A stretch of 53,475 nucleotides of DNA from a virus. The notes beneath the pieces were generated by a model, which was given only the letters and a program-made list of their open reading frames with translations, was not told where the DNA came from and searched no databases. Within the stretch, counting starts at the first letter, position 1. Each line of letters opens with the position of its first letter. The position numbers and the translations under genes were made by a program. Below, in pieces: positions 20,875 to 36,717 of this stretch. Location: IMG/VR virus record IMGVR_UViG_3300028388_004078, positions 1 to 53,475 of that record. One strand, written 5' to 3'.

Positions 20875-20903
20875 GTGATACGTGATTCGGCTCTTATTGT
20901 CAA
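20875..20903 (-). promoter_or_regulatory. GANTC-containing promoter before the 711-residue gene
   Basis: TTGACA, 9 bp, GAATC, 3 bp, TATCAC on the minus strand. This 9/5/3 spacer layout recurs in at least nine other promoters of the window. Confidence 0.65.
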
Positions 20904-20955
20904 CACGCTTGTGTTCAACACCAGTGTATTGAAGACATAGCCGCCAGCTTTTTCC

Positions 20956-21031
20956 AGACAACTGCTCTACCACTGAGCTACACCCCGGCACTGCAGGGAT
21001 GGTGGGACTCGAACCCACGACCTGTTGTTTC
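20956..21031 (-). tRNA. Probable circularly permuted tRNA gene, anticodon uncertain
   Basis: In transcript order the 3' half comes first: ACAAC (3' anticodon stem strand), AGGTC, GTGGG-TTCGAGT-CCCAC (T arm), CATCCCT. After 7 nt the 5' half follows: CGGGGTG, TA, GCTC-AGTGGTA-GAGC (D arm), GTTGT (5' anticodon stem strand). The two anticodon-stem strands are perfectly complementary and the acceptor strands pair at six of seven positions. No T arm lies where a normal gene would need it. The cut falls in the anticodon loop, so the anticodon cannot be read safely. Two unrelated tRNA fragments remain possible. Confidence 0.5.
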
Positions 21032-21175
21032 ATACGTTAGAAGTATGCTGTTGCGATGCGGTCTTCAAGACACTGATGATGTGTGAAGGAGCGAAGCGGG
21101 TGGCTTTGCTCTCTACCAATGATGAATTAGAAGTATGCCTGCCCATGCGGCTCCCTCGCAAATCATCAGTGTAAG

Positions 21176-21527
21176 TTGGGGGCTTCTGTTGCTAGGTGCC
21201 CCCGGACCCCTTGGACTTACGCCGCGATGGCAAGCGCCGGAGCGCGGTCATCGTTTGCGACGGAAGCCTCGATTGCGATCATGTCGATTGCAGTTGTGAT
21301 TTCGAATCGAAGTTCTTGCCCTGATAACGGTAAGGCCAAGCCGACACGCCACTTCACTTATTGTTCCTGTCGATCCTATTTCGCCCCCATCAAAACCGCA
21401 CCTCATTTTGAGCGTGCCATCGGCTATACCGTGTGACCCGAACTTAGGATCGGGTGCGGTTATGGTGGAGGCGCGGGGTACCGCCCCCCGGTCCAGAAAA
21501 CCATCCGCTTCGCAGATGAACGTGTGT
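21176..21527 (-). ncRNA. ssrA: Two-piece (circularly permuted) tmRNA
   Basis: The gene has the permuted order of alphaproteobacterial tmRNA. First comes the acceptor RNA: T arm CGGGG-GGCGGTA-CCCCG, acceptor CGCCTCC, A and encoded CCA ending at 21463. Then an intervening segment whose AACCGCACC and GGTGCGGTT pair to bring the ends together. Then the coding RNA, starting at 21388 with GGGGGCGA and GGATCGACAGG; GGGGGCG pairs with the acceptor strand. The tag frame (21217-21258) reads ANDDRAPALAIAA then TAA. The helix GTAAGT/ACTTAC closes the 3' part. The promoter is at 21534-21562. It should rescue stalled ribosomes and tag products for proteolysis. Confidence 0.92.
21217..21258 (-). CDS. tmRNA proteolysis tag peptide
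   Basis: Resume codon GCA, then 12 more codons and TAA, encoding ANDDRAPALAIAA. The AND-start and the small hydrophobic end are typical of alphaproteobacterial tags; the terminal AIAA differs from the common ALAA and could alter ClpXP or SspB recognition. Confidence 0.9.
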   Translation of the reverse strand, partial: ANDDRAPALAIAA

Positions 21528-21533
21528 AGGGAA

Positions 21534-21562
21534 GACATAGACGATTCGAGCGGCTATGTCAA
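21534..21562 (-). promoter_or_regulatory. GANTC-containing tmRNA promoter
   Basis: TTGACA, 9 bp, GAATC, 3 bp, TATGTC on the minus strand, a few bases upstream of the acceptor RNA of the tmRNA. Confidence 0.75.
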
Positions 21563-21564
21563 GC

Positions 21565-21843
21565 TCAATATGCCGTTGGAAACGTCTGAATCGGAGAAGT
21601 CGTGTTCTCCAACGTGACCGTGTCGACTTCAACGCGGTACACCTCGACGTAGAGGATCGAAATCTGATCCACACGAACAGTTGCCGCGCCATTGTTGATA
21701 TCGACCCAATCCTCGGTCAGCGGTGTCCGCCGCCGGGTCTGCGCCTGAGAAAGCGCCGCGACGAGGCTGGCGACATTGGCTGTCTGGTGGATGGTGAGAA
21801 CGTAGTCGCTAATCAGGCCACGTACAACGGCGAAGTATTCCAT
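21565..21843 (-). CDS. Small hypothetical protein upstream of tmRNA
   Basis: A 92-residue protein with AAGGAAG before the ATG. It begins MEYFAVVRGLISDYVLTIHQTANVASLVAALSQ (helical) and continues with WVDINNGAATVRVDQISILYVEVYRVEVDTVTL, a run of strands. It ends just before the tmRNA promoter. No family recognised. Confidence 0.5.
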   Translation of the reverse strand: MEYFAVVRGLISDYVLTIHQTANVASLVAALSQAQTRRRTPLTEDWVDINNGAATVRVDQISILYVEVYRVEVDTVTLENTTSPIQTFPTAY

Positions 21844-21869
21844 CGCGCTTCCTTAGATGTGGGTTCTGC

Positions 21870-21915
21870 CCAGCCGCGTCATGTGTTCGTTTTCATCGCC
21901 ACATGACGCGGCTGG
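21870..21915. terminator. 16-bp hairpin between a tRNA and a protein gene
   Basis: A perfect 16-bp inverted repeat (CCAGCCGCGTCATGTG, 14-nt loop) separates tRNA 21922-22006 from the gene at 21565-21843. No T run follows on either strand, so an RNA processing or stabilising role is as likely as termination. Confidence 0.55.
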
Positions 21916-21921
21916 TGAAAT

Positions 21922-22006
21922 TTGCGGGGGCAGGATTCGAACCTGCGTGATCCTTGTTCAGGAAACGGGTTATGAGCCCGCTGAGTGGCCTCTACTCTAC
22001 CCCGCA
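21922..22006 (-). tRNA. Type II tRNA with CAT anticodon, initiator-like stem
   Basis: Acceptor TGCGGGG/CCCCGCA, D stem GAGT/ACTC, anticodon stem GCGGG/CCCGT with loop CTCATAA, T arm GCAGG/CCTGC. The three stacked G-C pairs next to the loop are the hallmark of initiator tRNA. Yet an 18-nt variable region with a TCCT/AGGA stem makes it class II. CCA is not encoded. Confidence 0.7.
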
Positions 22007-22022
22007 ACAAAATACCCATAAT

Positions 22023-22087
22023 TGGTCGGCGTGGTGGGGAGTCGAACCCCTTGATGCATCACTATCCTCAAGCCCCGAGGCACGCCG
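22023..22087 (-). tRNA. tRNA-like gene without an anticodon arm
   Basis: A 65-nt element with perfect acceptor CGGCGTG/CACGCCG, A73, encoded CCA, D-like arm CCTC/GAGG and T arm GGGG-TTCGACT-CCCC. Only about 15 nt, which fold as TGAT-GC-ATCA, lie where the anticodon arm should be. It may be a decayed tRNA or a chargeable mimic. Confidence 0.5.
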
Positions 22088-22118
22088 AAAAATGGTCCGC
22101 GCAAGCACGAACAAGTAT

Positions 22119-22194
22119 TGGTCAGGGCGGTGGGTCACGATCCCACGGCCTCCGGATTCCAAATCCGGTACTCTACCAACTGAGCTACGCCCTG
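22119..22194 (-). tRNA. tRNA-Pro(TGG)
   Basis: Acceptor CAGGGCG/CGCCCTG with the C1-G72 pair typical of proline, anticodon stem CCGGA/TCCGG with loop TTTGGAA (TGG), encoded CCA. Confidence 0.88.
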
Positions 22195-22197
22195 ATG

Positions 22198-22554
22198 TTA
22201 CGTTGGGGCGCCTTTCGGCGACGTGATTTCTTCGTCCAGTGTTTGGAAATTCGATCCGCTGGCGACCAGACAGGTCAGGCCGTTTGGTGTCGTGACCGTG
22301 ATCGTCCATGTGCCGGTTTCTTCGTTGCCCCAGACTTCCACGATGGCGGTGGCGGTGGAACCGCCGCTGCCACTCAGGCCAACTGCTCGGCGCGCTTCTT
22401 CGTAGCCGGGGCGAGTACCGGAAGGAGCGTCGATTGGGCCGCTCAGGCGTGCCTCGACAAGCTGCCGTGGGGCACAGTTCTGTTGCTGGGCATCAGCGGG
22501 GTGCGATGCAAAAACGGCCAGCGCCAGAGCGGGCGCCGCAAGAAACTTCCACAT
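22198..22554 (-). CDS. Exported small protein with signal peptide
   Basis: A 118-residue protein from the ATG at 22554 (AAGGA 7 bp upstream). Signal peptide WKFLAAPALALAVFASHPADA with a likely cut after ADA. The mature part has two cysteines (NCAPRQLVEARL; GLTCLVASG) that could pair, and strands TAIVEVWGNEETGTWTITVTTPNG. Proteins of this layout are common in Rhodobacterales. It probably acts in the periplasm. A GANTC promoter lies at 22728-22756 with a leader of about 170 nt. Confidence 0.65.
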   Translation of the reverse strand: MWKFLAAPALALAVFASHPADAQQQNCAPRQLVEARLSGPIDAPSGTRPGYEEARRAVGLSGSGGSTATAIVEVWGNEETGTWTITVTTPNGLTCLVASGSNFQTLDEEITSPKGAPT

Positions 22555-22727
22555 GTTCATGTCCTTTTCGACTTTGGTGCTCAATCGCACCACATAAAAG
22601 TTACGATCCGGTTTCCTCTCAAACCAAAAAAGTCACGCCCGTGTTGTGTTCTTGCTTGGCCGCTCCTGCGGAGCACGAGACAACTTGCGTAATACAATAC
22701 CATATTTTCTTGGAACTTGTTGAACCC

Positions 22728-22756
22728 TATGTAGGTGATTCGGACGCCAGTGTCAA
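22728..22756 (-). promoter_or_regulatory. GANTC-containing promoter
   Basis: TTGACA, 9 bp, GAATC, 3 bp, TACATA on the minus strand, upstream of the exported protein gene at 22198-22554. Confidence 0.7.
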
Positions 22757-22821
22757 GAACTTTTTTGGCCCACCACGCGATGGTGACTTACGTTCCTCCC
22801 GCCCGCAGAGGAAACCGTGTG

Positions 22822-22895
22822 TGGAGACGTGACCCGGAGTCGAACCGGGATTGACGGAGTTGCAGTCCGCCGCGTAGCCATTCCGCCATCACGTC
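22822..22895 (-). tRNA. tRNA-Cys(GCA)
   Basis: Acceptor GACGTGA/TCACGTC, U73 (a cysteine identity base), anticodon stem GCGGA/TCCGT with loop CTGCAAC (GCA), encoded CCA. Confidence 0.88.
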
Positions 22896-22896
22896 A

Positions 22897-22968
22897 TGGT
22901 CGCGCCACCCGGTAACGATCCGGGCCGGGTTCTTTATGAGAGAACCTTGATCACCATGATCTGGCGCA
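22897..22968 (-). tRNA. tRNA with CAT anticodon (Met or Ile2)
   Basis: Acceptor TGCGCCA/TGGCGCG, D arm GATC/GATC, anticodon stem GTTCT/AGAAC with loop CTCATAA (CAT), T loop ATCGTTA instead of TTCRANY, encoded CCA. Third CAT gene of the array. Confidence 0.75.
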
Positions 22969-22973
22969 GAATT

Positions 22974-23050
22974 TGGTAGCGCATACGGGTTTCGAACCCG
23001 TTTCTCTGCCTTGAAAGGGCAGCGACCTTCGCCAAGAAGTCCAATGCGCC
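22974..23050 (-). tRNA. tRNA-Glu(TTC)
   Basis: Acceptor GGCGCAT/ATGCGCT, anticodon stem CTGCC/GGCAG with loop CTTTCAA (TTC), T arm ACGGG/CCCGT with TTCGAAA, encoded CCA. Confidence 0.86.
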
Positions 23051-23057
23051 ATGAATT

Positions 23058-23133
23058 TGGTGTGCCGGGAAGGAATCGAACCTTCATCTTCGGGACTTCA
23101 ATCCGATGTGGGCACCAGCATCACCACCGACAC
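23058..23133 (-). tRNA. tRNA-Phe(GAA)
   Basis: Acceptor GTGTCGG/CCGGCAC, anticodon stem TCGGA/CCCGA with loop TTGAAGT (GAA), T arm GAAGG/CCTTC with TTCGATT, encoded CCA. It forms the 3' end of the transcript that carries the long structured RNA before it. Confidence 0.78.
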
Positions 23134-23575
23134 ATAAAACGCAAACTTGAGATTTTCAATCCCACTTGCCGTGGGCTACTCTCGTGGACCCCAATCCAAC
23201 GGCTCGACCCGACACATCTTTTGGTGTTGGGGCACCGCCAGACATATCCTCGACTTCCGCTTAAAACTGGACATCGGGTGGCGCGATTGGGCACGCCATG
23301 CCGCTGCCACCACGAACCTTACGGTTCTCGTCTGGATGAAACAATCTAGGTGCGTGCTCGATAAGGGTCCCGTAGGACAAATACCGTTTCGTGCTCAAAA
23401 TGATCGAGCACGCGCCAAGATTGTTCCCCAAAAGGGACGCCGGTCATCGGATAACCCCCGTTGGGAGGTCCCTATCGGCGCACATTGCCATATTATTTAT
23501 CACAGCTATCGCCGTGGCAACGTTCAGAACACCAAATTGTCAAAAAGCGTGTCAATGCAGAGCATCAACTTCCCT
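23134..23575 (-). ncRNA. Long structured RNA upstream of tRNA-Phe
   Basis: About 440 bp without a protein gene, starting just after its own promoter (23579-23607) and running into tRNA-Phe. It is dense in helices: CGAACC-GTAA-GGTTCG with a GNRA tetraloop, CCCAC/GTGGG, CCCCAA/TTGGGG, and an 11-bp pair GCGTGCTCGAT (23352-23362 with 23403-23413). The 3' arm of that pair can also pair locally (23390-23396 with 23406-23412), so two forms are possible. Position beside phage tRNAs recalls GOLLD and ROOL RNAs; class not proven. Confidence 0.6.
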
Positions 23576-23578
23576 AGT

Positions 23579-23607
23579 CAGATAACTGATTCGGGGTGGT
23601 TTGTCAA
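23579..23607 (-). promoter_or_regulatory. GANTC-containing promoter of the long RNA
   Basis: TTGACA, 9 bp, GAATC, 3 bp, TATCTG on the minus strand, just upstream of the structured RNA that ends in tRNA-Phe. Confidence 0.7.
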
Positions 23608-23631
23608 GCGCTAAGTACCGCTTCTAATTTT

Positions 23632-23713
23632 TGGAAGGTCCTACAGGATTCGAGCCCGAGTCACTGGATTGAAAGTCCAATATCCTTGACTAGGCGAAGG
23701 CATAAAAGGACGC
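23632..23713 (-). tRNA. tRNA-Glu(TTC), second copy
   Basis: Anticodon stem TTGGA/TCCAG with loop CTTTCAA (TTC), D stem CCTT/AAGG with a long loop, T loop CTCGAAT, U73, encoded CCA. The acceptor pairs at six of seven positions. First gene of the array in transcript order. Less regular than the other glutamate tRNA. Confidence 0.6.
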
Positions 23714-23802
23714 TACAACTCTGAGACAAAGATTTTCGGAGACGTTTAGATCCGGTTGACTTTGGCGAGACATGTAATCCCGCCGCCGGTACGTTTCCTA
23801 TT

Positions 23803-23886
23803 TCACAGCCTTGGTCTCTCGTTCGTATGATACCTAATGCTCGGTACGGGCTGCGCCTCATGGGGCGTATATGCGCCAGTAAACAT
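23803..23886 (-). CDS. Short leader-like peptide
   Basis: A 27-residue frame (MFTGAYTPHEAQPVPSIRYH...) with AGGAGG 6 bp before the ATG, preceded by a promoter at 23946-23974. It may be a real small protein or a leader peptide for the tRNA transcript. No other support. Confidence 0.35.
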   Translation of the reverse strand: MFTGAYTPHEAQPVPSIRYHTNERPRL

Positions 23887-23945
23887 GGTGTCGCCTCCTA
23901 TGTTGGCGGTTCTAGCGGAGTAGGCGTCCGCATCTGATGTAATAC

Positions 23946-23974
23946 TAACTACACCAACCCGATTCGAATGTCAA
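23946..23974 (-). promoter_or_regulatory. GANTC-containing promoter of the tRNA array
   Basis: TTGACA, 17-bp spacer with GAATC three bases after the -35 element, TAGTTA on the minus strand. It is the first promoter upstream of the tRNA array. Confidence 0.55.
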
Positions 23975-24013
23975 CAACTTTTTTGCGTCTGGTCACATTT
24001 TTCTTCGTATGGG

Positions 24014-24295
24014 CTATTTTTCAATCTGTAATTGTCCTAGCCCGTTCCTGTCGATGTAGCGGTCCACCTCTTCCGTGTTCAGGCGATGAGCTTTGGGAAC
24101 GTGGTTTCGACCGTTGCGTATGTGTTCATCCACCCACTTCTCGGCTTCGAGGATGCCGCAGATCATATTGTTGCGGGTGGGTCCGACTTCAAGTTCCCAG
24201 ACTTTCGTTCCACTTGGCGAGATGATTGCCAGTTCATGGATTTCAGGTTCGTGTCCCTTACCGCGAACATAGCGATGTGTCAGTAGGTAAGTCAT
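24014..24295 (-). CDS. Small hypothetical protein
   Basis: A 93-residue protein (MTYLLTHRYVRGKGHEPEIHELAI...) whose ATG overlaps the TAA of the membrane peptide gene before it, so it is translated by coupling. It has IISPSGTKVWELEVGPTRNN as strands and a charged helical end with NTEEVDRYIDRNGLG. No family recognised. Confidence 0.5.
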   Translation of the reverse strand: MTYLLTHRYVRGKGHEPEIHELAIISPSGTKVWELEVGPTRNNMICGILEAEKWVDEHIRNGRNHVPKAHRLNTEEVDRYIDRNGLGQLQIEK

Positions 24296-24450
24296 TACAG
24301 TCTTTCGTCGAAACTCTCGAACGCGTCGGTAATCTTGTCTGCCACTCGTGTGTGGAACAAAACAAAGTACAGCCCCACCCAAGCCAGTGCAGCGACCAAA
24401 AGCGCTCCAAGCGTGAGCGCCGCTCCAATCAACATCATATCCAAAAACAT
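24295..24450 (-). CDS. Small single-pass membrane protein
   Basis: A 51-residue protein with AGGAGG at ideal spacing. One long membrane segment (ALTLGALLVAALAWVGLYFVLF) then a charged tail HTRVADKITDAFESFDERL. Second of two adjacent small membrane proteins; a lysis or superinfection-exclusion role is possible but unsupported. Confidence 0.6.
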   Translation of the reverse strand: MFLDMMLIGAALTLGALLVAALAWVGLYFVLFHTRVADKITDAFESFDERL

Positions 24451-24464
24451 TTCATTCCTCCTTT

Positions 24465-24560
24465 TCAGCCTTCTCTGGCTATGATAACAATCGCCGCCAG
24501 TACAATACCAGCAATTACCACGTACGGTACTGCTTCGATTAGCATAGGTAGTCCAGTCAT
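24465..24560 (-). CDS. Small single-pass membrane peptide
   Basis: A 31-residue peptide, almost wholly one membrane segment (YVVIAGIVLAAIVII) after MTGLPMLIEAVP, with AAGGGTG before the ATG. Its stop is followed at once by the ribosome-binding site of the next membrane protein. A promoter (TTGACA, 17 bp, TACTGA) lies at 24584-24612. Confidence 0.55.
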   Translation of the reverse strand: MTGLPMLIEAVPYVVIAGIVLAAIVIIAREG

Positions 24561-24608
24561 GTCATTCACCCTTTAGATAACCATCAGTACCACGATCTCG
24601 TTAGCCTG

Positions 24609-25106
24609 TCAAGGCACGACGCACTTGTTCTGGATCATGGGATTGATCAGGTCCCGGCGAAGATAGCGATAGATGTCCTTGAAGCAGTCGCCGTGCGGTT
24701 TCATATAGGGCTTCGAGCTTTTTCGCCCAAACCGTTTAATCTTCGGGCCGTATCGGAACTGAACATGGTGAGAGACTTCGTGGGCGACGAGACACCAGAG
24801 GGCGTCTTCGGGGTCGATGACGGTGATGCGCCCGATTATGGGGTCCTTGTCGAACGACTTGTATTCCGACCATACACGGTTGTTTCTTTGCCAGCACTCA
24901 AGGTTGATTTTGATGCAGGACGCACCTGCTCGGGACCGGATGCCCGGAGTGCTTCTGACGATGAGGGCTTGATGTGCGATGGTGCCTGCGTTAGCGGGCA
25001 GATCAAGCTCATATTGCTTGAGGCGGAGTTGCCTGATGCAGCGCTTGACCATCTTAGCAACTTTCTGCGCCTCGGATCGGCTGACGTTCTGACCGAGAAT
25101 CTTCAT
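24609..25106 (-). CDS. SprT-like zinc metalloprotease
   Basis: A 165-residue protein starting at 25106 (AAGGAGG). ALWCLVAHEVSHHVQFRYGPK contains the HExxH zinc site (HEVSH), and KPHGDCFKDIYRYLRRDLINP downstream supplies the third ligand region, both typical of SprT-like proteases. The N-terminal part is basic and helical. Members cleave DNA-protein crosslinks or have unknown targets. A promoter (TTGACA, 17 bp, TACATT) lies at 25136-25164. Confidence 0.75.
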   Translation of the reverse strand: MKILGQNVSRSEAQKVAKMVKRCIRQLRLKQYELDLPANAGTIAHQALIVRSTPGIRSRAGASCIKINLECWQRNNRVWSEYKSFDKDPIIGRITVIDPEDALWCLVAHEVSHHVQFRYGPKIKRFGRKSSKPYMKPHGDCFKDIYRYLRRDLINPMIQNKCVVP

Positions 25107-25135
25107 GTGGGCCTCCTTCTGATTCGCTATGAACA

Positions 25136-25164
25136 AATGTAACTCACAGCGAAAATGATGTCAA
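25136..25164 (-). promoter_or_regulatory. Promoter of the SprT-like gene
   Basis: TTGACA, 17-bp spacer, TACATT on the minus strand, 30 bp upstream of the gene. No GANTC in the spacer. Confidence 0.6.
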
Positions 25165-25485
25165 GTACCTGTTTTACAAGAGATTCTGAGGCTCGGCCCA
25201 GAATAGTTAAAAATGTGTTAATCCATATTTGAAAATTTTCAAATTTTTGGAGACCGGTTTTTTGAAAGGGGGGTGGGGGGTCTAATTCTCGGCTGGGTCC
25301 CCGGTTGGTGTGAGAGGCGCTGCCGGGTGCTGTAAGTGGTAAATTGGTCTTGGCCTAGCTAACAGCTACTACGCGCGCGAATCACCCCCACCCCTACCTC
25401 CCCCTTGGGTCCCTCCCGGTTTCGAATGTCAAGGTTCCATGTTTGTGCCGCGATGTTTTTTGCATCGCGACACTTTGTCCTTGAC
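25165..25485. other. Gene-free region with long-range G/C inverted repeat
   Basis: 320 bp without a gene. It has an AT-rich palindrome (TTTGAAAATTTTCAAA near 25228), a G-run block containing GGGGTGGGGG (about 25266), its exact complement CCCCCACCCC at about 25386, and a hairpin CGCGATG/CATCGCG near 25452. The G-run could form a quadruplex on the plus strand. Function unknown. Confidence 0.6.
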
Positions 25486-25743
25486 TTACCAGCCAGCATC
25501 TGCCTCGACCAGCAGGTCCGTGAGGTAGTCCATGCATTGCGATTCGATCTTGTCCATCAGGCGCTTGCTCACCCGCTTGCCGCGCGAGTTATAGACAATC
25601 ACGTCCTCAACCTCGGTCCATGCCGGTTCGTCGCTGCCGTAGCTGTTGCTGCCGCCATGCGAGACAGTTGCTTCAACCTCAACCTCGCACTCATACTCGG
25701 TTCCGTTGTGCTGGATGTAGACGGTGGCGGTGATGTTGGTCAT
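25486..25743 (-). CDS. Accessory hypothetical protein
   Basis: An 85-residue acidic protein with AAGGGA before the ATG. MTNITATVYIQHNGTEYECEVEVEATVSHGG and WTEVEDVIVYNSRGKRV suggest a small beta-sheet protein with a helical end. Own promoter at 25777-25805. First of a series of short, separately promoted genes. Confidence 0.6.
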   Translation of the reverse strand: MTNITATVYIQHNGTEYECEVEVEATVSHGGSNSYGSDEPAWTEVEDVIVYNSRGKRVSKRLMDKIESQCMDYLTDLLVEADAGW

Positions 25744-25776
25744 TGGGTCATTCCCTTGTTAGCGTTTCGATGATTC

Positions 25777-25805
25777 TTTATCGCACTCCTCGCCACGATT
25801 CGCAA
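25777..25805 (-). promoter_or_regulatory. TTGCGAATC-type promoter
   Basis: TTGCGA, 17-bp spacer, GATAAA on the minus strand. GAATC overlaps the -35 element. Confidence 0.7.
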
Positions 25806-25829
25806 TAGAAAAATCGCACGCCCTTTCAT

Positions 25830-26270: not shown

Positions 26271-26306
26271 GAATTTTGCCTTTCGGGTTTTTCGTTTTGT
26301 CACATC

Positions 26307-26335
26307 TTTCTAGCGCGATTCGCGGGCAAGGTCAA
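26307..26335 (-). promoter_or_regulatory. GANTC-containing promoter
   Basis: TTGACC, 8 bp, GAATC, 4 bp, TAGAAA on the minus strand, before the gene at 25830-26270. Confidence 0.65.
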
Positions 26336-26357
26336 GCGCCTTGCCCGCATGCCTGCC

Positions 26358-26744: not shown

Positions 26745-26810
26745 ATCTGAGTCCTTTCCTTGGGTTTATGCCCCGCGCCTTTACCGGGGCCGCGTTCTTT
26801 CTGTGCATCC

Positions 26811-26839
26811 TTTATGCCTGATTCGTAGGGCGCGGTCAA
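26811..26839 (-). promoter_or_regulatory. GANTC-containing promoter
   Basis: TTGACC, 9 bp, GAATC, 3 bp, CATAAA on the minus strand. The 30 bp are nearly identical to the promoter at 27140-27168. Confidence 0.75.
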
Positions 26840-27139: not shown

Positions 27140-27168
27140 TTTATGCCTGATTCGTAGGGCGCGGTCAA
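27140..27168 (-). promoter_or_regulatory. GANTC-containing promoter
   Basis: TTGACC, 9 bp, GAATC, 3 bp, CATAAA on the minus strand, a near copy of the promoter at 26811-26839. Confidence 0.75.
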
Positions 27169-27192: not shown

Positions 27193-27462
27193 TTACGGTG
27201 TTTCACGTGAAACAATGGCGTCCAGTAGCGTTTGCCAGTCTTTCGCGGGGATTGCCACGAATTGCGGCGAATTCGTCGCGGTCGCGGCGCGGGAAAGATT
27301 GACCAGAACCGCCCGCAAGCGCTCGGAGTCGTTGTGTTGCGCCTCTTGCGTTTCGATGCATTCGATTGCGACTCGGATCGTTTCCGCGATCTCTGCCCCG
27401 TCAAGGTGCGGATTCAGATGCACGTTGCCGGGTTGTGTAGACCCTAGAAGGGTCCGCAGCAT
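27193..27462 (-). CDS. Accessory hypothetical protein with parS in its 3' end
   Basis: An 89-residue helical protein (MLRTLLGSTQPGNVHLNPHLDGAEIAETIRVAIECIE...) ending DAIVSRETP. The last codons are made from a perfect 16-bp parS palindrome (27199-27214). A TTG overlapping the stop before it could be an earlier start. No family recognised. Confidence 0.5.
   Translation of the reverse strand: MLRTLLGSTQPGNVHLNPHLDGAEIAETIRVAIECIETQEAQHNDSERLRAVLVNLSRAATATNSPQFVAIPAKDWQTLLDAIVSRETP
27199..27214. promoter_or_regulatory. parS: parS-type centromere site, copy 1
   Basis: Exact 16-bp palindrome TGTTTCACGTGAAACA, the consensus bacterial chromosomal ParB binding site. It lies in the 3' end of the gene at 27193-27462. 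Confidence 0.85.
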
Positions 27463-27758: not shown

Positions 27759-27787
27759 AGATTAGGCGGTGCGGGCGATTCTGTCAA
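27759..27787 (-). promoter_or_regulatory. GANTC-containing promoter
   Basis: TTGACA, 17-bp spacer starting GAATC, TAATCT on the minus strand. Confidence 0.65.
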
Positions 27788-28437: not shown

Positions 28438-28466
28438 TTTGTAGCACATGTCGGTGCGATTCGCAA
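28438..28466 (-). promoter_or_regulatory. TTGCGAATC-type promoter
   Basis: TTGCGA, 17-bp spacer, TACAAA on the minus strand. Confidence 0.75.
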
Positions 28467-28733: not shown

Positions 28734-28762
28734 TTTATCGCATGGGTCGCGGCGATTCGCAA
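28734..28762 (-). promoter_or_regulatory. TTGCGAATC-type promoter
   Basis: TTGCGA, 17-bp spacer, GATAAA on the minus strand. Confidence 0.75.
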
Positions 28763-28795: not shown

Positions 28796-28824
28796 TTGCG
28801 AATCGCGGCGGCGCGGCGTAGTGT
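28796..28824 (+). promoter_or_regulatory. TTGCGAATC-type promoter of sRNA copy A
   Basis: TTGCGA, 17-bp spacer, TAGTGT on the plus strand, about 6 bp before the first conserved base of the small RNA. Confidence 0.75.
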
Positions 28825-28829
28825 ATAGG

Positions 28830-28909
28830 GGAGGTCAGGAAAGATCGGCGGACACCGATTGAGTAAGGGGCGGGTTAGGAGTGCAGAATCCGTTCTTTTT
28901 TTTTTTTTT
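28830..28909 (+). ncRNA. Small RNA family, copy A
   Basis: About 80 nt. It shares with three other copies the 5' block GAGGTCAGGAAAG, a variable hairpin (here ATCGG-CGGACA-CCGAT), then AGTA-GGGG-CGGGTTAGGAG and a 3' hairpin ending in CCGTTC followed by at least 14 T, an intrinsic terminator. It has its own promoter and no reading frame. Confidence 0.7.
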
Positions 28910-30086: not shown

Positions 30087-30115
30087 TTGCGAATCGCACA
30101 ACGGTCGGCTAGGTT
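30087..30115 (+). promoter_or_regulatory. TTGCGAATC-type promoter of sRNA copy B
   Basis: TTGCGA, 17-bp spacer, TAGGTT on the plus strand, 7 bp before the conserved 5' block of copy B. Confidence 0.75.
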
Positions 30116-30189: not shown

Positions 30190-30268
30190 GGGAACAAAAA
30201 GAGAACGGATTCCGCTCTCTTAAACCGTCCCATACTTGGCGCGGGCGGCGCGCCTTTCCTGACCTCAC
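30190..30268 (-). ncRNA. Small RNA family, copy D
   Basis: Minus strand: GAGGTCAGGAAAG, hairpin GGCGCG-CCGCC-CGCGCC, AAGTA-GGGACGGTTTAAGAG, then a 9-bp hairpin AGAGAGCGG-AAT-CCGTTCTCT followed by TTTTTG, a clear intrinsic terminator. Promoter at 30274-30302. Confidence 0.75.
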
Positions 30269-30273
30269 ATATA

Positions 30274-30302
30274 CCTTAGAACGATTCGGGCAGCGGTGTC
30301 AA
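30274..30302 (-). promoter_or_regulatory. GANTC-containing promoter of sRNA copy D
   Basis: TTGACA, 9 bp, GAATC, 3 bp, CTAAGG on the minus strand. Confidence 0.65.
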
Positions 30303-30321: not shown

Positions 30322-30337
30322 TGTTTCACGTGAAACA
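30322..30337. promoter_or_regulatory. parS: parS-type centromere site, copy 2
   Basis: Exact TGTTTCACGTGAAACA in the gap between sRNA copy D and the gene at 30400. Confidence 0.85.
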
Positions 30338-30776: not shown

Positions 30777-30805
30777 GTTATGCCATGCGGCGGGGCGATT
30801 CGCAA
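30777..30805 (-). promoter_or_regulatory. TTGCGAATC-type promoter
   Basis: TTGCGA, 17-bp spacer, CATAAC on the minus strand, before the gene at 30400-30726. Confidence 0.7.
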
Positions 30806-30833
30806 TAGTTTTTTCGCCCCGCCTTGCGTTTTT

Positions 30834-30974: not shown

Positions 30975-31037
30975 TGTCTCACCTTTCTGCGCTTTGATGC
31001 GCTGGGGTTTGCGGGGCGAATCGCCCCGCGTTTGAAT

Positions 31038-31088
31038 TTAGAAATGACCTAACGCGATGTAAAGCGCGATCAGGATTCCGAGTGTCAC
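31038..31088 (-). CDS. Hydrophobic micropeptide
   Basis: A 16-residue frame (GTG start, TLGILIALYIALGHF) overlapping the stop of the gene before it as GTGA. Its size and hydrophobicity match the other membrane peptides of the region, but nothing else supports it. Confidence 0.3.
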   Translation of the reverse strand: MTLGILIALYIALGHF

Positions 31089-31873: not shown

Positions 31874-31967
31874 GGGTTTTCCTTTCTGGCGTTGCGGTGA
31901 TTCCTTTCTCGCATATGCCACGCCGGGATGCAAGCGAAAAAATTTTGCGCAAGCTTGCTTTTTTCTC

Positions 31968-31996
31968 TTGCGAATCGCTTTGCCCGGTGTCATACA
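31968..31996 (+). promoter_or_regulatory. TTGCGAATC-type promoter of the H-NS-like gene
   Basis: TTGCGA, 17-bp spacer, CATACA on the plus strand, 50 bp before the ATG. Confidence 0.75.
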
Positions 31997-32046
31997 TAGA
32001 TCACCGAAACGGCAAACAACGCCAAAACCCAAAGGAGACTTTACAC

Positions 32047-32364
32047 ATGACGACTCAGACCCACGGTTTCGACCTTTCCACGCTCGACCCCGCCGCGCTG
32101 GAAGCGCTCGCCGCCGATGCGGCGAAACTCGCCCCGAAGGTGCAGAAGGAACGGCTGGAAGCCGCCCGCGCCGCCGCGCTGGAAGTGATCGAGTCCCACG
32201 GTTTCACCTTGCGCGACGTGTTCCCGAACGCCAAGCGCGTGACGCCCGCCGCGCCGAAATTCCGCCATCCCGACGACGAGTCGCAAACGTGGTCCGGGCG
32301 CGGTCGCAAGCCGGTTTGGCTTGTCGATCTGGAAGCCGCAGGCGGCGCGCCGGTCGCGATCTAA
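32047..32364 (+). CDS. H-NS-like DNA-binding protein
   Basis: A 105-residue protein with AAAGGAG before the ATG. The C-terminal PKFRHPDDESQTWSGRGRKPVWL is the H-NS/HvrA DNA-binding motif (TWSGRGRxPxW) that inserts into the minor groove of AT-rich DNA. The N-terminal 60 residues form a helical oligomerisation region. H-NS-like proteins silence AT-rich foreign genes or compete with host silencers. Own promoter and a strong terminator (32387-32419) make it a single-gene unit. Confidence 0.9.
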   Translation: MTTQTHGFDLSTLDPAALEALAADAAKLAPKVQKERLEAARAAALEVIESHGFTLRDVFPNAKRVTPAAPKFRHPDDESQTWSGRGRKPVWLVDLEAAGGAPVAI

Positions 32365-32386
32365 GGCGCGCCACAGAACAAAGGAA

Positions 32387-32419
32387 AGGCCCGCCTTGCA
32401 TGTGCAAGGCGGGTCTTTG
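32387..32419 (+). terminator. Intrinsic terminator after the H-NS-like gene
   Basis: An 11-bp stem GCCCGCCTTGC/GCAAGGCGGGT with loop ATGT, followed by CTTTG. A-rich on the left side as well. Confidence 0.75.
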
Positions 32420-32428
32420 TGAATGCGT

Positions 32429-32444
32429 TGTTTCACGTGAAACA
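32429..32444. promoter_or_regulatory. parS: parS-type centromere site, copy 3
   Basis: Exact TGTTTCACGTGAAACA between the H-NS terminator and the next promoter. Confidence 0.85.
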
Positions 32445-32463
32445 AGCCTGCGCAAATTTTCTA

Positions 32464-32492
32464 TTGACCGCGCCGCGCGAATCGTGCAAGGT
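32464..32492 (+). promoter_or_regulatory. GANTC-containing promoter
   Basis: TTGACC, 9 bp, GAATC, 3 bp, CAAGGT on the plus strand, 20 bp after parS copy 3. Confidence 0.65.
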
Positions 32493-32517
32493 AAGGCATA
32501 GCAAGAAAGGAAACCCG

Positions 32518-32748
32518 ATGGAAACCGCAGCACAAGCAAAAGCCCGCCTTGACGCCCAAATTGCCTATGGCAAATGGAACGTCGCAGGAACCACCCGCCG
32601 TTTGCGGGAAGCGCAATTGCGCGAAATGTCCCCCGCCCGCCGTGCCCTTTCCATCGCCACAGAAAAGGCGATTGATTGCGTGATGTTTTGCGCGGGCTGG
32701 GCATTGTTCGCCGCGTTTGCGTGGTATGGGATCGGGGGGCTTTTCTAA
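32518..32748 (+). CDS. Small protein with C-terminal membrane segment
   Basis: A 76-residue protein (METAAQAKARLDAQIAYGKW...) with AAAGGA before the ATG. A basic helical N-terminal part is followed by a membrane segment CVMFCAGWALFAAFAWYGI at the end. Its TAA overlaps the next ATG (TAATG). Confidence 0.6.
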   Translation: METAAQAKARLDAQIAYGKWNVAGTTRRLREAQLREMSPARRALSIATEKAIDCVMFCAGWALFAAFAWYGIGGLF

Positions 32749-32981
32749 TGCTGATACCCGAACAAACAACCCGCAACGCAATCCGGGCGGGTGACGTGAT
32801 AGAGCACAACGGGCGAGTCGTCACGTTGTGCGCACGTGATATCCGCCGGGATTCATTCATGGGAGTCACCATACGGGGCGAGTCCTACATGCTGGGGCGC
32901 AAGCCTGTTATCCGGTTGCGCCCATATCGGACGCCACAGGGGGCAGCGTGCCCGCAATGCGTGAACGAGGGCAAGGGATAG
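32748..32981 (+). CDS. Small hypothetical protein with CxxC
   Basis: A 77-residue protein (MLIPEQTTRNAIRAGDVIEHNGRVVTLCARDIRR...) coupled to the gene before it. AGDVIEHNGRVVTL resembles an SH3-like small barrel, and it ends with CPQCVNEGKG. A further short stretch (32982-33125) has a TTGACG promoter-like sequence and no clear gene. Confidence 0.55.
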   Translation: MLIPEQTTRNAIRAGDVIEHNGRVVTLCARDIRRDSFMGVTIRGESYMLGRKPVIRLRPYRTPQGAACPQCVNEGKG

Positions 32982-33125
32982 GGCTTGACGAATCGCGCCC
33001 CGAGCGATACGTTGAGTCATGGCGCAGGATAGCACGCGGAGTCGTGCCGTTACTGTAAGCGGGTGCTGGTCACCTAGCGCGGTGCGAGGCTGAAATGTCT
33101 GATCTGTAAGCCGCCAAATTAGCCC

Positions 33126-33154
33126 TTGCGAATCACCGGGCAATGTCCTAATCT
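33126..33154 (+). promoter_or_regulatory. TTGCGAATC-type promoter of sRNA copy C
   Basis: TTGCGA, 17-bp spacer, TAATCT on the plus strand, 6 bp before the conserved block. Confidence 0.75.
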
Positions 33155-33159
33155 GAATG

Positions 33160-33226
33160 TGAGGTCAGGAAAGCGCGGCGGACACCGGGCAAGTAGGGGA
33201 CGGTTTAGGAGAGCAGACTCTGTCTA
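33160..33226 (+). ncRNA. Small RNA family, copy C
   Basis: GAGGTCAGGAAAG, a GCGGCGGACACCG element shared with copy A, AAGTAGGGGACGGTTTAGGAG, then GCAGACTCTGTC able to form a small hairpin. The 3' end is uncertain; a T run follows at about 33261. Confidence 0.7.
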
Positions 33227-33309
33227 TCTACAAAAGGTTAACGAAAGCTTTCTCGCCAGATTTTTTGATGGGGCGGGCGCGCTCCAGACAAAAACGGCGC
33301 GCGCGCTAT

Positions 33310-33480
33310 AGAAAAAATGAGAAAACGTAAAAACGGCTGATCGTCAAAACGAGCGATCACCAGAACGAGCGTGCGTATTAAAAAATGAGAAAACGTAAAA
33401 ACGACGGATCGTCAAAACGCGAGATCGTCAAAACAAAAATGAGAAATAGTCAAAATAAAAATGCGATCCCGTCAAAACTG
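33310..33480 (+). repeat. Iteron-like direct repeats
   Basis: At least five repeats around GATCGTCAAAACG or GATCCCGTCAAAACT are spread over 170 bp, mixed with two copies of ATGAGAAAACGTAAAAACG. One more CTCCCGTCAAAACT lies at about 33664. Together with the AT-rich makeup this resembles a replication origin or a regulator-binding array. No gene overlaps. Confidence 0.6.
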
Positions 33481-33863
33481 CGTTTCACCAGTTCTGAAAC
33501 GAAAGCTGGGCGCGGCTCGGCTTAGGCGTGATGGGTCATATATGACCCCTAAAGCGGTGTGAGATGCCATAAATGACTCATTGAGGCCCGCTACGCGGGC
33601 TTCTCCCAGTTCGCCAAGCAGCGCGAGCTTTCGCGCCCCTCGGCGTGACAGTGATAAATATAAAAAATACGCTCCCGTCAAAACTCGTTGCAGTCGTTTT
33701 GAAACAAAAACCCCACCAGTATATAACTGGCGGGGCGTTCCATTTGATCTTCTGCTTTTTGCTCAAAAGTAAAGCCAAGCTCATGGCTCTGATGCACCTT
33801 ATATAACCGATTCGTGCTGGTTTGTTAAGAGATTCTTTATCTTAATGCTCGTTTTCAGAGGCA
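33481..33863. other. Gene-free region with palindromes and terminator-like hairpins
   Basis: Contains a perfect 16-bp palindrome GGGTCATATATGACCC (33535-33550), hairpins GCCCGC-TAC-GCGGGC and GCGCGA-GCTT-TCGCGC, and a strong stem CCCCACCAGT/ACTGGCGGGG (about 33711-33737). No credible gene on either strand. Confidence 0.5.
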
Positions 33864-33975
33864 AAAAGGGGTGCTCCCCGCCGCTCGACCAGAGTGTCTG
33901 GGAGCAGGACCGCGTAAGCGGTCGCGTGGCGGGGAGCGGTTTTGCCGCACAGGAAACCCAAAACCCTGCGGCATG
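33864..33975 (-). terminator. Structured 3' region with alternative stems and terminator
   Basis: Downstream of the HTH gene. On the minus strand a long stem GCTCCCCGCC/GGCGGGGAGC encloses two hairpins (GACCGC/GCGGTC; CCAGA/TCTGG). Its last strand can instead pair with the following CCCC to give GGGG-AGCA-CCCC and a TTTTT tail. The two pairings exclude each other, so this may be a switchable terminator. Confidence 0.5.
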
Positions 33976-33983
33976 AGAGGAAC

Positions 33984-34367
33984 CTACTTCACCTCTCGAA
34001 CCATGTCAAGCTTAAATATCTCCTGCGTCTTCTCGGGCAGCCAGTGCGGGTCAAGTTGCGGAAAGTCCCGCCTGTGCGAGAGCATGGACGGGTTGCGTGT
34101 CTTGTCTCTGGGATCGACCCAGCGGTGTACCAGCTTCTCAAGAGAGAGCACCAGCAGCGCTACATGGCGCGGTACAGGCTTGAGACCACGGCACCAGTGC
34201 TCGACTGTTGTACGGTTGAAGCCCGCGTAGCGGGAGAAGCCTTCGATGCCCTTACGGTGGCCCCAGATGGACTCGATGGCGATCAGCATGTCCTCGGGCC
34301 ACATGTAGCCGATCTTGCGGCCTTGGTTATCGACATGCCACCATTCTGGATTCTTGCGGCCTACCAC
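33984..34367 (-). CDS. HTH regulator-like protein
   Basis: A 127-residue protein with a GTG start overlapping the TAG of the gene before it. PEDMLIAIESIWGHRKGIEGFSRYAGFNRTTVEHWCRGLKPVPRHVALLVLSLE reads as a helix-turn-helix domain (helix, GFNRTTVEHW recognition helix, then a third helix). The C-terminal 45 residues are basic. The operon promoter is flanked by GGGACCC boxes, consistent with autoregulation. Confidence 0.65.
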   Translation of the reverse strand: MVGRKNPEWWHVDNQGRKIGYMWPEDMLIAIESIWGHRKGIEGFSRYAGFNRTTVEHWCRGLKPVPRHVALLVLSLEKLVHRWVDPRDKTRNPSMLSHRRDFPQLDPHWLPEKTQEIFKLDMVREVK

Positions 34368-34531
34368 CCAGCACCTACCTGATCATCAATCGCGTTAGTA
34401 AGGAGGCTTTCATAGACTACGTAACTCTGGCTCTCTCGCCACGCGCCTTCTTCGCTGTACGTCTTGTACCGAAATTTATACCCCTCGAAGAAAGCTTTCT
34501 TGATATACTCCGCCATTTTCCTGCAATTCAT
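34361..34531 (-). CDS. Small protein coupled to the HTH gene
   Basis: A 56-residue protein (MNCRKMAEYIKKAFFEGYKFRYKTYSEEGAW...) whose stop overlaps the GTG of the HTH gene. An alternative start at 34516 (MAEYIKK) has AGGA directly upstream. No family recognised. First gene of a two-gene regulatory operon. Confidence 0.5.
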   Translation of the reverse strand: MNCRKMAEYIKKAFFEGYKFRYKTYSEEGAWRESQSYVVYESLLTNAIDDQVGAGW

Positions 34532-34555
34532 GTCATACCCATATTTAGATTCATC

Positions 34556-34608
34556 GGGTCCCTATACAAAATAATAGGGTCCCTGTCAAGTCGGGAGACA
34601 GGGACCCT
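34556..34608 (-). promoter_or_regulatory. Promoter with GGGACCC operators inside a terminator stem
   Basis: On the minus strand TTGACA, 17 bp, TATAGG directs the small gene and HTH gene. GGGACCCTA and TAGGGACCC copies overlap the -35 and -10 parts. The same DNA forms a 12-bp stem (AGGGTCCCTGTC with its complement, 34576-34608) that can end transcription of the gene at 34654. Further GGGTCCCT copies occur at about 34650 and 35037. Confidence 0.6.
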
Positions 34609-34653
34609 TGGATGGGACTAAGGTCCCGCCGGGTATTGAATGTTTATGGGTCC

Positions 34654-34884
34654 CTACAATGTAATCGCAGCTTCCATTTCTTCTTGGGTCAGTCCCAAGC
34701 GTCCTGCCTCGTTTCCCTGTGCGTGTAGGAATATTTCCGGCGGTGCATCGGGATGGTCGTCCATGCAGTTCATCTGCCACTGCCCCATGTAGGCTCCATA
34801 TTCATCCCACACCATGCGATGGGACAGGGCGCCAAAGTCTTGCTCATATCCGGTCGGGGTTTTTACGATGTCAGGTTCGTCCAT
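34654..34884 (-). CDS. Small acidic hypothetical protein
   Basis: A 76-residue protein (MDEPDIVKTPTGYEQDFGALSHRMVWDEYGAYMGQWQMN...) with AAGGAGG before the ATG and a GANTC promoter at 34911-34939. A Trp/Tyr-rich middle is followed by LTQEEMEAAITL. No family recognised. Confidence 0.55.
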   Translation of the reverse strand: MDEPDIVKTPTGYEQDFGALSHRMVWDEYGAYMGQWQMNCMDDHPDAPPEIFLHAQGNEAGRLGLTQEEMEAAITL

Positions 34885-34910
34885 GTTAATCCTCCTTTTT
34901 TGCTTAACCT

Positions 34911-34939
34911 TACATCGCATGATTCGCGCTCAGTGTCAA
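34911..34939 (-). promoter_or_regulatory. GANTC-containing promoter
   Basis: TTGACA, 8 bp, GAATC, 4 bp, GATGTA on the minus strand, before the gene at 34654-34884. Confidence 0.65.
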
Positions 34940-35102
34940 CACGCTACAGCGTAAAAAGTCACGTTCTGACCAGCGGTCTCCCGATAAATTTTATGCAGTT
35001 TGTTAATAAATAGGTATACCGGCAAGTGAATCAGGCTGGGTCCCTAGAAAATCAACATCTAAGGAAAGCGAATCGTGCTTTGGCAATGAAAGCAGGCTGA
35101 AA

Positions 35103-35213
35103 TCAGGTTGGTTCGAGAATTATCTCGTAAGGAACAGCGTCAGTAATCCACCTTGGCTGATTGATGCCCTTAAAAATAATGGCATCTTTGCCTTTACCGA
35201 AATAGTCAGACAT
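35103..35213 (-). CDS. Small hypothetical protein
   Basis: A 36-residue frame (MSDYFGKGKDAIIFKGINQPRWITDAVPYEII...) coupled by TGATG to the frame before it. Strand-like composition. Supported only by coupling. Confidence 0.45.
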   Translation of the reverse strand: MSDYFGKGKDAIIFKGINQPRWITDAVPYEIILEPT

Positions 35214-35293
35214 CAAAAAGCATCTTCGATATCTCCAGAATTCGGGTTGATGGCAGTGACCCGCGTAGCGGGGATTTTTGGAAAGCTTGGCAT
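35213..35293 (-). CDS. Small hypothetical peptide
   Basis: A 26-residue frame (MPSFPKIPATRVTAINPNSG...) with GGAGGGAATC before the ATG. A promoter TTGTAG, 17 bp, TATACT lies at 35321-35349 with a CCCC-TGA-GGGG palindrome in its spacer, a likely operator. Confidence 0.5.
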   Translation of the reverse strand: MPSFPKIPATRVTAINPNSGDIEDAF

Positions 35294-35299
35294 GATTCC

Positions 35300-35767
35300 C
35301 TCCTACTGATTCTGTGAGACCAGTATAGGCCCCGTCAGGGGCTTCTACAAGTCCAAATATGACGTTTCAGACAAATTGTCACGTGAAAAATCGAGATGTG
35401 ACAAAAGATATTTAGCAAAATCAGTTAGTTATATGTTCACCCGATTCTGGTATTGTAATTCGTGACCCGCCCGGCGAATCAACTCAGGTGGGTACCCAAA
35501 TTGTCACATCTGAGATTCGGCTAGAACGAATCAGTTTGTGGCGCGTCCCCGAGAAAAAATAAAGATCGACCGACGAAAACGCAGGGCGGGAAAATTACCG
35601 TGATCTTAATTTTTCGCGTGGCTGCTGGGATACCTTGGTATTCTGTTGGAGAAAATGGTAGAGCTACTGGCGATCTTAATGATATCTCAGAGACTCAGAC
35701 TTTTCTCCGGCTGCTACAGACCCTTTTCACATTCCCCCTACCCTGCATTTGGAATCCGTTGGATCCC
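35300..35767. other. Gene-free regulatory region
   Basis: Contains a dyad TTGTCAC (35376-35382) with GTGACAA (35398-35404) and repeats of CAAATTGTCA at about 35374, 35507 and 35850. These may bind one regulator. Two overlapping plus-strand frames after 35600 have no ribosome-binding site or family pattern and were not called. Confidence 0.5.
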
Positions 35768-35850
35768 GGAAAAAAGACCCGGTATATTTCAACCGGGCCA
35801 GTTTGAAGGAGGAACACCAGATAGCCTATCTGGTGAAATATGTGTACCAC
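35768..35850 (-). ncRNA. Candidate small RNA with exposed anti-Shine-Dalgarno
   Basis: Minus strand: TTGACA near 35869 then TACACA as promoter; hairpin CACCAGATA-GGC-TATCTGGTG (35815-35835); a linker with CCTCCTT (35806-35812), complementary to AAGGAGG; a terminator hairpin CCCGGT-TGAAATAT-ACCGGG followed by TCTTTTTT. The layout is that of a discrete two-hairpin RNA whose single-stranded part could bind ribosome-binding sites. Alternatively the plus strand holds a remnant ribosome-binding site. Confidence 0.5.
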
Positions 35851-35881
35851 AAATTGTCATATCTTGTCAAGCGATTTGGGG

Positions 35882-35910
35882 TTGACGGGTCACAGCGAAT
35901 CGGCTAGATG
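35882..35910 (+). promoter_or_regulatory. GANTC-containing promoter
   Basis: TTGACG, 9 bp, GAATC, 3 bp, TAGATG on the plus strand, start of the 36-38 kb gene run. Confidence 0.75.
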
Positions 35911-35942
35911 TAAGGCAGCGGTAAATTTATATGGAGGACGAC

Positions 35943-36185
35943 ATGACAGACTGGTATGAGCGGAGACACGAACTGGAACCGGACATGGTGTTCACGGACT
36001 ACGAAGGAGACCTCGTGAAACTCGACCGGCGGGTACCGGGCGACGGAACACAGTGGTACGTGGCTGTGTGGTGCAACGGCGGATGGAGCTACGAGGACCA
36101 CAGCATCGAGCCGGGTGATCTGGTGACCAAGGTCGATGAGGCCAAGGTTCTGTCGGGAGACTATGTGACGGAGGTGACGGTATGA
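35943..36185 (+). CDS. Hypothetical protein, SH3-like strands
   Basis: An 80-residue acidic protein from the ATG at 35943 (GGAGG 5 bp upstream). ELEPDMVFTDYEGDLVKLDRRVPGDGTQWYVAVWCNGGWSYEDHSIEPGDLV reads as a small beta barrel. First gene of a coupled run; the next ATG overlaps its stop (ATGA). Confidence 0.6.
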   Translation: MTDWYERRHELEPDMVFTDYEGDLVKLDRRVPGDGTQWYVAVWCNGGWSYEDHSIEPGDLVTKVDEAKVLSGDYVTEVTV

Positions 36186-36418
36186 GCACGATCCCAAGCA
36201 CCAAGGAAGAATTCATGAAAGACTGTGCGAAGTTTACCCGTGTCATGGGTGATAAGAGGCACACACAAGCGCAGGTTTCCGGGGCACACAAGGCGCTGAC
36301 CTTGCGATACCTCGGACTGACGCCTGACACGCCTTCGGAAGACGTTGAACTGTGCGCCATGCACCTCAAGATTGCCACCGAAGGTGCGATGGCCCGTGGA
36401 TGGGAGTTGGGATCATGA
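36182..36418 (+). CDS. Small helical hypothetical protein
   Basis: A 78-residue helical protein (MSTIPSTKEEFMKDCAKFTRVMGDKRH...) overlapping both neighbours by ATGA. No family recognised. Confidence 0.6.
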   Translation: MSTIPSTKEEFMKDCAKFTRVMGDKRHTQAQVSGAHKALTLRYLGLTPDTPSEDVELCAMHLKIATEGAMARGWELGS

Positions 36419-36678
36419 TCGGCTGCGAACACATCAGGATCGAAACGACGCAGGAATGGCCCACCGTGTGGGAACTGTCGCACATCGACTACCGGGGGGG
36501 TCGGAATGTCATCGCTGAATTCAGGGATGGTCCGCTGCAACGCCGACTGGTGTTGGAAACGGCGAATGCTGCTGCCCGCGAAAAGCTGGTCGGGATCATC
36601 GAGATCGGTGCGAGTGCCGATAATCTCGCCAAGCTGGACGGCCTGCATGGCGGATTCAGGATCGACGCGGATTGGTAA
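36415..36678 (+). CDS. Small hypothetical protein
   Basis: An 87-residue protein (MIGCEHIRIETTQEWPTVWELSHIDYRGGRNVIAEF...) with alternating strands and a helix AREKLVGIIEIG. Coupled to the gene before it. No family recognised. Confidence 0.6.
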   Translation: MIGCEHIRIETTQEWPTVWELSHIDYRGGRNVIAEFRDGPLQRRLVLETANAAAREKLVGIIEIGASADNLAKLDGLHGGFRIDADW

Positions 36679-36688
36679 GAACAATTCG

Positions 36689-36717
36689 TTGACGTGCCCG
36701 CACGAATCAGGCAGAAG
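36689..36717 (+). promoter_or_regulatory. GANTC-containing promoter
   Basis: TTGACG, 9 bp, GAATC, 3 bp, CAGAAG on the plus strand, before the gene at 36748. Confidence 0.7.

Follow-up and report, generated by a model that had tools for sequence, protein, structure and literature searches.

GANTC is the site methylated by CcrM in alphaproteobacteria, and GcrA is a sigma70 partner in Caulobacter. Here, we describe promoters that carry GANTC at fixed positions in a 53,475-nucleotide stretch of viral DNA (IMG/VR record IMGVR_UViG_3300028388_004078, positions 1 to 53,475; hereafter the window). GcrA/CcrM promoters of Caulobacter crescentus were reportedly described by Gonzalez & Collier 2013, Fioravanti 2013, and Haakonsen 2015. 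At ftsZ of C. crescentus, a conserved CGACTC between −35 and −10 is required for CcrM-dependent activity (PMC3708114), and at ctrAP1 GcrA covers the GAnTC adjoining the −35 element, with coverage from −35 to +7 when the site is fully methylated in vitro (PMC3667746). Changing GAnTC to GCnTC lowers several GcrA-target promoters by 60–80% (PMC3667746). The motif of GcrA-activated promoters in C. crescentus is given as YGAKTCG in a passage of PMC7987155 that cites Haakonsen 2015. GcrA itself contacts sigma region 2 with a domain that is attached by an unstructured linker (PMC7403470).

At the DNA level, none of the isolated phages is closely related to the window (53.5 kb). Its terminase and portal are 65–69% and 59–63% identical, respectively, to their counterparts in six Rhodobacteraceae phages of ~148 kb (DSS3P8, vB_RpoS-V10, RpAliso, MD18, DSS3_MAL1, and RcXuper). 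The window represents part of a roseophage-type siphovirus genome of ~148 kb; Rhodobacter- and Roseobacter-type bacteria are the host group of this phage family. A directional CGAATC(R) box is locked to the sigma70 core promoter at two positions in at least six related phages. We propose, with a probability of about 60%, that these takeover promoters are read by host GcrA on CcrM-methylated DNA.

Two fixed positions of the GANTC box

A placed GANTC occurs in 29 promoters of the window, most of them followed by a plausible ribosome-binding site and a same-strand open reading frame (ORF). In the 13 class A promoters, GAATC lies between −35 and −10 (TTGAC-N9/10-GAATC), and in the 13 class B promoters it overlaps or abuts the −35 element, mostly as TTGCGAATC. 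The remaining three, which we term class C, carry GANTC at offset 9 from the start of TTGACA.

20875..20903 (−), class A: CGAATCA between −35 TTGACA and −10 TATCAC; ORF of 711 amino acids (aa) downstream
21534..21562 (−), class A: CGAATCG
22728..22756 (−), class A: CGAATCA
23579..23607 (−), class A: CGAATCA
26307..26335 (−), class A: CGAATCG; ahead of a 146-aa L5 gp82-like ORF
26811..26839 (−), class A: CGAATCA
27140..27168 (−), class A: CGAATCA; parS 30 bp upstream
30273..30302 (−), class A: CGAATCG; leader GAGGTCAGGAA; parS 19 bp upstream
32464..32492 (+), class A: CGAATCG; parS 19 bp upstream
34911..34939 (−), class A: CGAATCA, offset 14
35882..35910 (+), class A: CGAATCG
36689..36717 (+), class A: CGAATCA
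52410..52438 (+), class A: CGAATCA; ahead of a 144-aa ORF
9340..9368 (−), class B: TTGTGAATCA
25777..25805 (−), class B: TTGCGAATCG; CGAAACG leader
27759..27787 (−), class B variant: TTGACAGAATCG
28438..28466 (−), class B: TTGCGAATCG
28734..28762 (−), class B: TTGCGAATCG
28796..28824 (+), class B: TTGCGAATCG; leader GAGGTCAGGAA
30025..30053 (−), class B: TTGCGAATCA; leader CCGAAACG; DUF932 ORF downstream
30087..30115 (+), class B: TTGCGAATCG; leader GAGGTCAGGAA
30777..30805 (−), class B: TTGCGAATCG; leader CCGAAACG
31968..31996 (+), class B: TTGCGAATCG; leader CCGAAACG; H-NS-like ORF downstream
32985..33013 (+), class B variant: TTGACGAATCG
33126..33154 (+), class B: TTGCGAATCA; leader GAGGTCAGGAA
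51449..51477 (+), class B variant: TTGACGAATCA
14890..14918 (−), class C: GACTC 9 bp from TTGACA start
23946..23974 (−), class C: GAATC at offset 9
47215..47243 (+), class C: GATTC at offset 9; −10 TAGTAT

An earlier note on this DNA had listed 24 such promoters, giving the −10 end as coordinate for those on the minus strand, and all 24 carry a GANTC placed as it described. Its tally of about 12, about 10, and a few was right in the layouts and overlooked five promoters (26307-26335(−), 34911-34939(−), 32985(+), 51449(+), and 52410(+)), which brings the counts to 13/13/3. At 9340 it gave TTGCGAATC, where the actual letters are TTGTGAATC. It had grouped 27759 among sites just after the −35 element; GAATC does lie immediately 3′ of TTGACA there, and we count the promoter as a class B variant. 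Class C is weak (three sites, offset 9) and, having no support in the relatives, was dropped as a conserved class.

Compared with randomised sequence, a check the earlier note had proposed, the phasing clearly exceeds chance. The TTGAC-to-GANTC offset of 15 is taken by 11 sites in the window against a mean of 0.67 in circular shifts, and none of 1,000 shifts reached 11 at any offset. Likewise, TTGCGAATC occurs nine times in the window with 0.64 expected (Markov order 3). Its copies number 24 in RcXuper, 16 in RpAliso, 12 in DSS3P8, 8 in MAL1, and 7 in MD18, with one each in CcrRogue and Cp1R7A-A1.

The phasing recurs in related phages, the second comparison that had been suggested. Many promoters have in common a leader, CACCGAAACG or GTGAGGTCAGGAA, directly after the start, and two GANTC-free leader motifs served as anchors in the window and five relatives (six genomes). 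Upstream of the 156 places with CCGAAACG, 46 GANTC sites lie at −20..−23 and 57 at −30..−33, with just 13 elsewhere within −10..−70; 300 shifts gave a mean of 1.5 per bin and a maximum of 5. With GAGGTCAGGAA as anchor, the corresponding numbers are 13, 5, and 0. Both anchors together place 59 sites at −20..−23 and 62 at −30..−33, about one helical turn (about 11 bp) apart. Since classes A and B have the same leaders, promoters that are equivalent in other respects differ in the box being displaced by one helical turn.

Motif statistics were taken from slightly narrower leader-anchored classes (56 A and 62 B sites). The coding strand reads GAATC in 118 of 118 of these sites, preceded by C in 95 and followed by G or A in 93, so that CGAATCR is usual; class A sites of MD18, MAL1, and DSS3P8 often have T after the box. 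In the alignment of class B sites, an A/T tract and a C precede TTGCGAATCG, which a 17-bp spacer separates from a −10 element like YANAAA; the leader follows.

Beyond the family, the class A layout is repeated in several unrelated T4-like contigs, with six copies in one 38-kb contig, which favors a reader supplied by the host. None was found in T4, S-SM2, phiM12, HTVC008M, CcrColossus, or roseophage EE36P1; thus, the trait is patchy. IMG/VR scans for the layout were compared with orientation and spacing controls, and 20–21 loci had repeated matches, against 1 and 3 in the controls, among the matches listed. Raw layout counts among the matches listed were set aside as evidence, because control matches are also promoter-like and chance is not separated.

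Near-identical promoter copies within RpAliso and within RcXuper show that promoters were duplicated within each phage, and GAATC might accordingly be a functionless by-product of the shared ancestry of such cassettes, carried along in ordinary sigma70 promoters. We regard this as very improbable, since the site is kept at two positions, with divergent spacers, across six phages that are 60–70% identical in terminase and portal. Moreover, its overlap with the −35 element costs consensus, and the T4-like contigs have the same layout. The raw GANTC frequency is uninformative: the T-arms of 30 tRNA genes raise the count, the promoter sites lie outside the tRNAs, and no special depletion was detected.

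Two further repeats accompany the promoters. The leader GAGGTCAGGAA stands at 28831, 30122, and 33161 (+) and at 30266 (−) of the window, some copies being followed by CGGCGGACACCGG and AGTAGGGGA; with these trailing elements, it may encode a small RNA or act as a leader element. A GCTTSAAGC palindrome, probably the operator of some regulator, is present in 17–45 copies in each of five relatives, directly upstream of or sometimes inside many promoters, and in zero copies in the window.

Host GcrA as the proposed reader of the box, and alternatives

The phage box, written as CGAMTCR, is the reverse complement of YGAKTCG and thereby matches the Caulobacter GcrA motif as that passage states it. 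GcrA is present in 41 of 41 Rhodobacteraceae, the family hosting the relatives, with DNA-binding domains 82–89% identical to that of Caulobacter, and 38 of the 41 have a CcrM-type methyltransferase (E <= 1e-50). No CcrM-family gene was found in the window or in 11 related phages. At the host ccrM promoter, GANTC lies near TTGAC in 34 of 37 genomes (33 at offset 8–9, mostly as CGAATC), with a second GANTC 11 bp further (offset 19–20) in 28 genomes and a third near −15 in about 29. The step equals the 11 bp of the phages, and the register to −35/−10 is off by 4 bp from theirs; GANTC-bearing promoters thus exist in the host family, with no identical layout implied. The phased sites suggest that Rhodobacteraceae ccrM is autoregulated by methylation.

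Host CcrM would methylate the promoter GANTC, and the DNA-binding domain of host GcrA would recognise the methylated box. The unstructured linker would allow two box positions: from either, on the same helix face, GcrA could hold sigma region 2, recruit RNA polymerase, and aid promoter opening. Class B promoters, in which the overlap degrades the −35 element to TTGCGA, would be expected to depend most strongly on GcrA, and the structural-gene promoters carry no GcrA box. More speculatively, promoters on DNA packaged after methylation might fire as soon as it enters the cell, and those on freshly replicated, under-methylated copies might fire more weakly.

Borrowing of GcrA, as the earlier note proposed, draws support from the directional CGAATCR, from its occurrence at both Caulobacter positions, and from the presence of GcrA and CcrM in the hosts. 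It is the best supported reading also because the phages have no CcrM-family gene and the promoters cluster in the small-gene region and not at structural genes. The set appears to work like GcrA-type promoters and may belong with them; host-wide, the layout is not enriched. That the phage reads the host cell cycle, we only infer.

Several observations weigh against GcrA as the reader of methylated DNA. The class A layout is unenriched in 31 Rhodobacteraceae genomes, with 22 matches against 31 for a reversed control that differs in composition. A conserved GANTC upstream of Rhodobacteraceae mipZ was not found among plus-strand loci, which speaks against mipZ as a host target there. The layout is absent from phiM12, HTVC008M, and roseophage EE36P1, a scan of alphaproteobacterial phages saw no asymmetric GcrA-site distribution (PMC9437464), and control by methylation in Rhodobacterales is questioned in a perspective article (PMC8116508). 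Finally, A invariably occupies the central position, a narrower choice than CcrM requires, so that the reader might respond to the sequence alone.

The invariant GAATC (118/118) would also suit a methylation-blind phage or host regulator that binds the box in a layout like that of T4 MotA boxes. Class B indeed looks like an activator box in place of the −35 element, and other repeats in the group, such as the GCTTSAAGC palindrome, imply phage or host regulators. Such a regulator is nevertheless unlikely: the motif and both of its positions agree with GcrA promoters already described, a choice between two positions is what a sigma-binding factor on a flexible linker could accommodate, and the class A layout also occurs in the unrelated T4-like contigs.

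MD18 encodes at 108218-108592 a GcrA DNA-binding domain (32/45 residues identical to Caulobacter) that lacks the sigma-binding part. As an in-frame insertion, it precedes a conserved phage gene, which has no GcrA domain in MAL1, DSS3P8, RpAliso, and RcXuper. No GcrA match was found in the window or in five of the six relatives. The domain may compete with host GcrA at the phased-GANTC promoters. Such a competitor would fit a site that is mainly a brake or timer, as at ctrAP1, where one methylation state (methylated or hemimethylated) fires and the other is tuned down after replication. The dependence of ctrAP1 on hemimethylation (PMC8116508), its coverage by GcrA from −35 to +7 when fully methylated in vitro (PMC3667746), and the up to three GANTC at the host ccrM promoter point the same way. 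However, the Caulobacter sites that match best, CGACTC at ftsZ and mipZ, have an activating role, and class B would retain a poor −35 element with no activator. We consider a brake or timer decidedly unlikely.

Promoter placement and parS sites

Phased-GANTC promoters crowd the small-gene ends of the relatives, with 18 in 140–149 kb of RpAliso and 25 in 130–148 kb of RcXuper; their density is moderate at about 80–130 kb and almost nil in the structural region. From their position and the type of gene served, we infer that they are early. In the window, genes for the head, the portal, and the terminase occur together with 30 tRNA genes, and a block of small ORFs, most of them unknown, occupies about 20–37 kb. 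Behind the class B promoter at 31968..31996 lies a gene for a small protein with an H-NS C-terminal domain (32047-32364, +).

The promoters at 5662 and 42600 had rightly been described as free of GANTC; both have TTGACATGTGCT..GCAATAT instead. They are near-identical, adjoin structural genes, and possibly represent a late class; this promoter type was not found in the relatives.

5663..5691 (−), GANTC-less promoter TTGACATGTGCT..GCAATAT, ahead of the portal gene
42601..42629 (−), GANTC-less promoter TTGACATGTGCT..GCAATAT, upstream of the terminase side

Furthermore, the window holds three perfect chromosomal-type parS sites with 0.04 expected, called with the general parS consensus.

27199..27214 (strand not assigned), perfect parS TGTTTCACGTGAAACA, upstream of promoter 27168(−)
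30322..30337 (strand not assigned), perfect parS, upstream of promoter 30302(−)
32429..32444 (strand not assigned), perfect parS, upstream of promoter 32464(+)

Together with those of RpAliso, DSS3P8, and MAL1, the group has 11 perfect or near-perfect parS sites, and all 11 lie on the upstream side of a phased-GANTC promoter, at a distance of 19–21, 29–30, or 42 bp from its −35 element. As a search of these phages (the window being a fragment) revealed no ParB_N protein, host ParB is the likely binder of the phage sites. Tentatively, and with considerable doubt, takeover might be licensed jointly by GcrA-read methylated GANTC and by ParB at parS 19–42 bp upstream. If so, under such dual-mark licensing the timing or strength of infection would track the replication and segregation state of the host.

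Comparison with known promoter systems

The alphaproteobacterial phages phiCbK, vB_BsubS-Delta, and Mesorhizobium Cp1R7A-A1 are CtrA-controlled (PMC9437464) and thus time their transcription with a cell-cycle regulator of the host; they belong to lineages distantly related to this group. CtrA control of the present phages finds no support in their 0–1 CtrA boxes (TTAA-N7-TTAA) per genome, against 5 in Cp1R7A-A1. A phage–GcrA link likewise exists in phages that encode GcrA homologues (phiCbK, Atu_ph08), and CcrRogue has a near full-length GcrA match. In contrast, the window and five of the six relatives have no such match, and MD18 has the DNA-binding domain only.

T4 middle promoters carry a MotA box at −30. 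They resemble class B in that an activator box replaces or overlaps the −35 element next to a sigma70 −10 element. Their activator and anti-sigma factor (MotA/AsiA) are phage-encoded; no pair of this type was identified here, the relatives not having been surveyed protein by protein.

Most of what is known about the control of promoters by GcrA and CcrM comes from Caulobacter and its near kin, and doubt has been cast on the part it plays in Rhodobacterales. Since the relatives infect the tractable Ruegeria pomeroyi, Phaeobacter inhibens, and Rhodobacter capsulatus, the role of GcrA and CcrM is directly testable, and the spacing of the two box positions by one helical turn lends itself to testing the way in which GcrA makes contact with sigma. 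If the proposal is right, an epigenetic mark of the host serves a virus as an element of its promoters. The closest likeness is to the C. crescentus promoters of ftsZ, mipZ, and ctrAP1, which also have GANTC within the core promoter, with CGAMTCR read in the same strand direction and placed either in the −35/−10 spacer or over the −35 element. The phage set, built around a GcrA/CcrM-type site, is probably a variant of this known promoter type that differs in residing in a phage, in numbering dozens per genome, and in using two fixed spacings and always GAATC.

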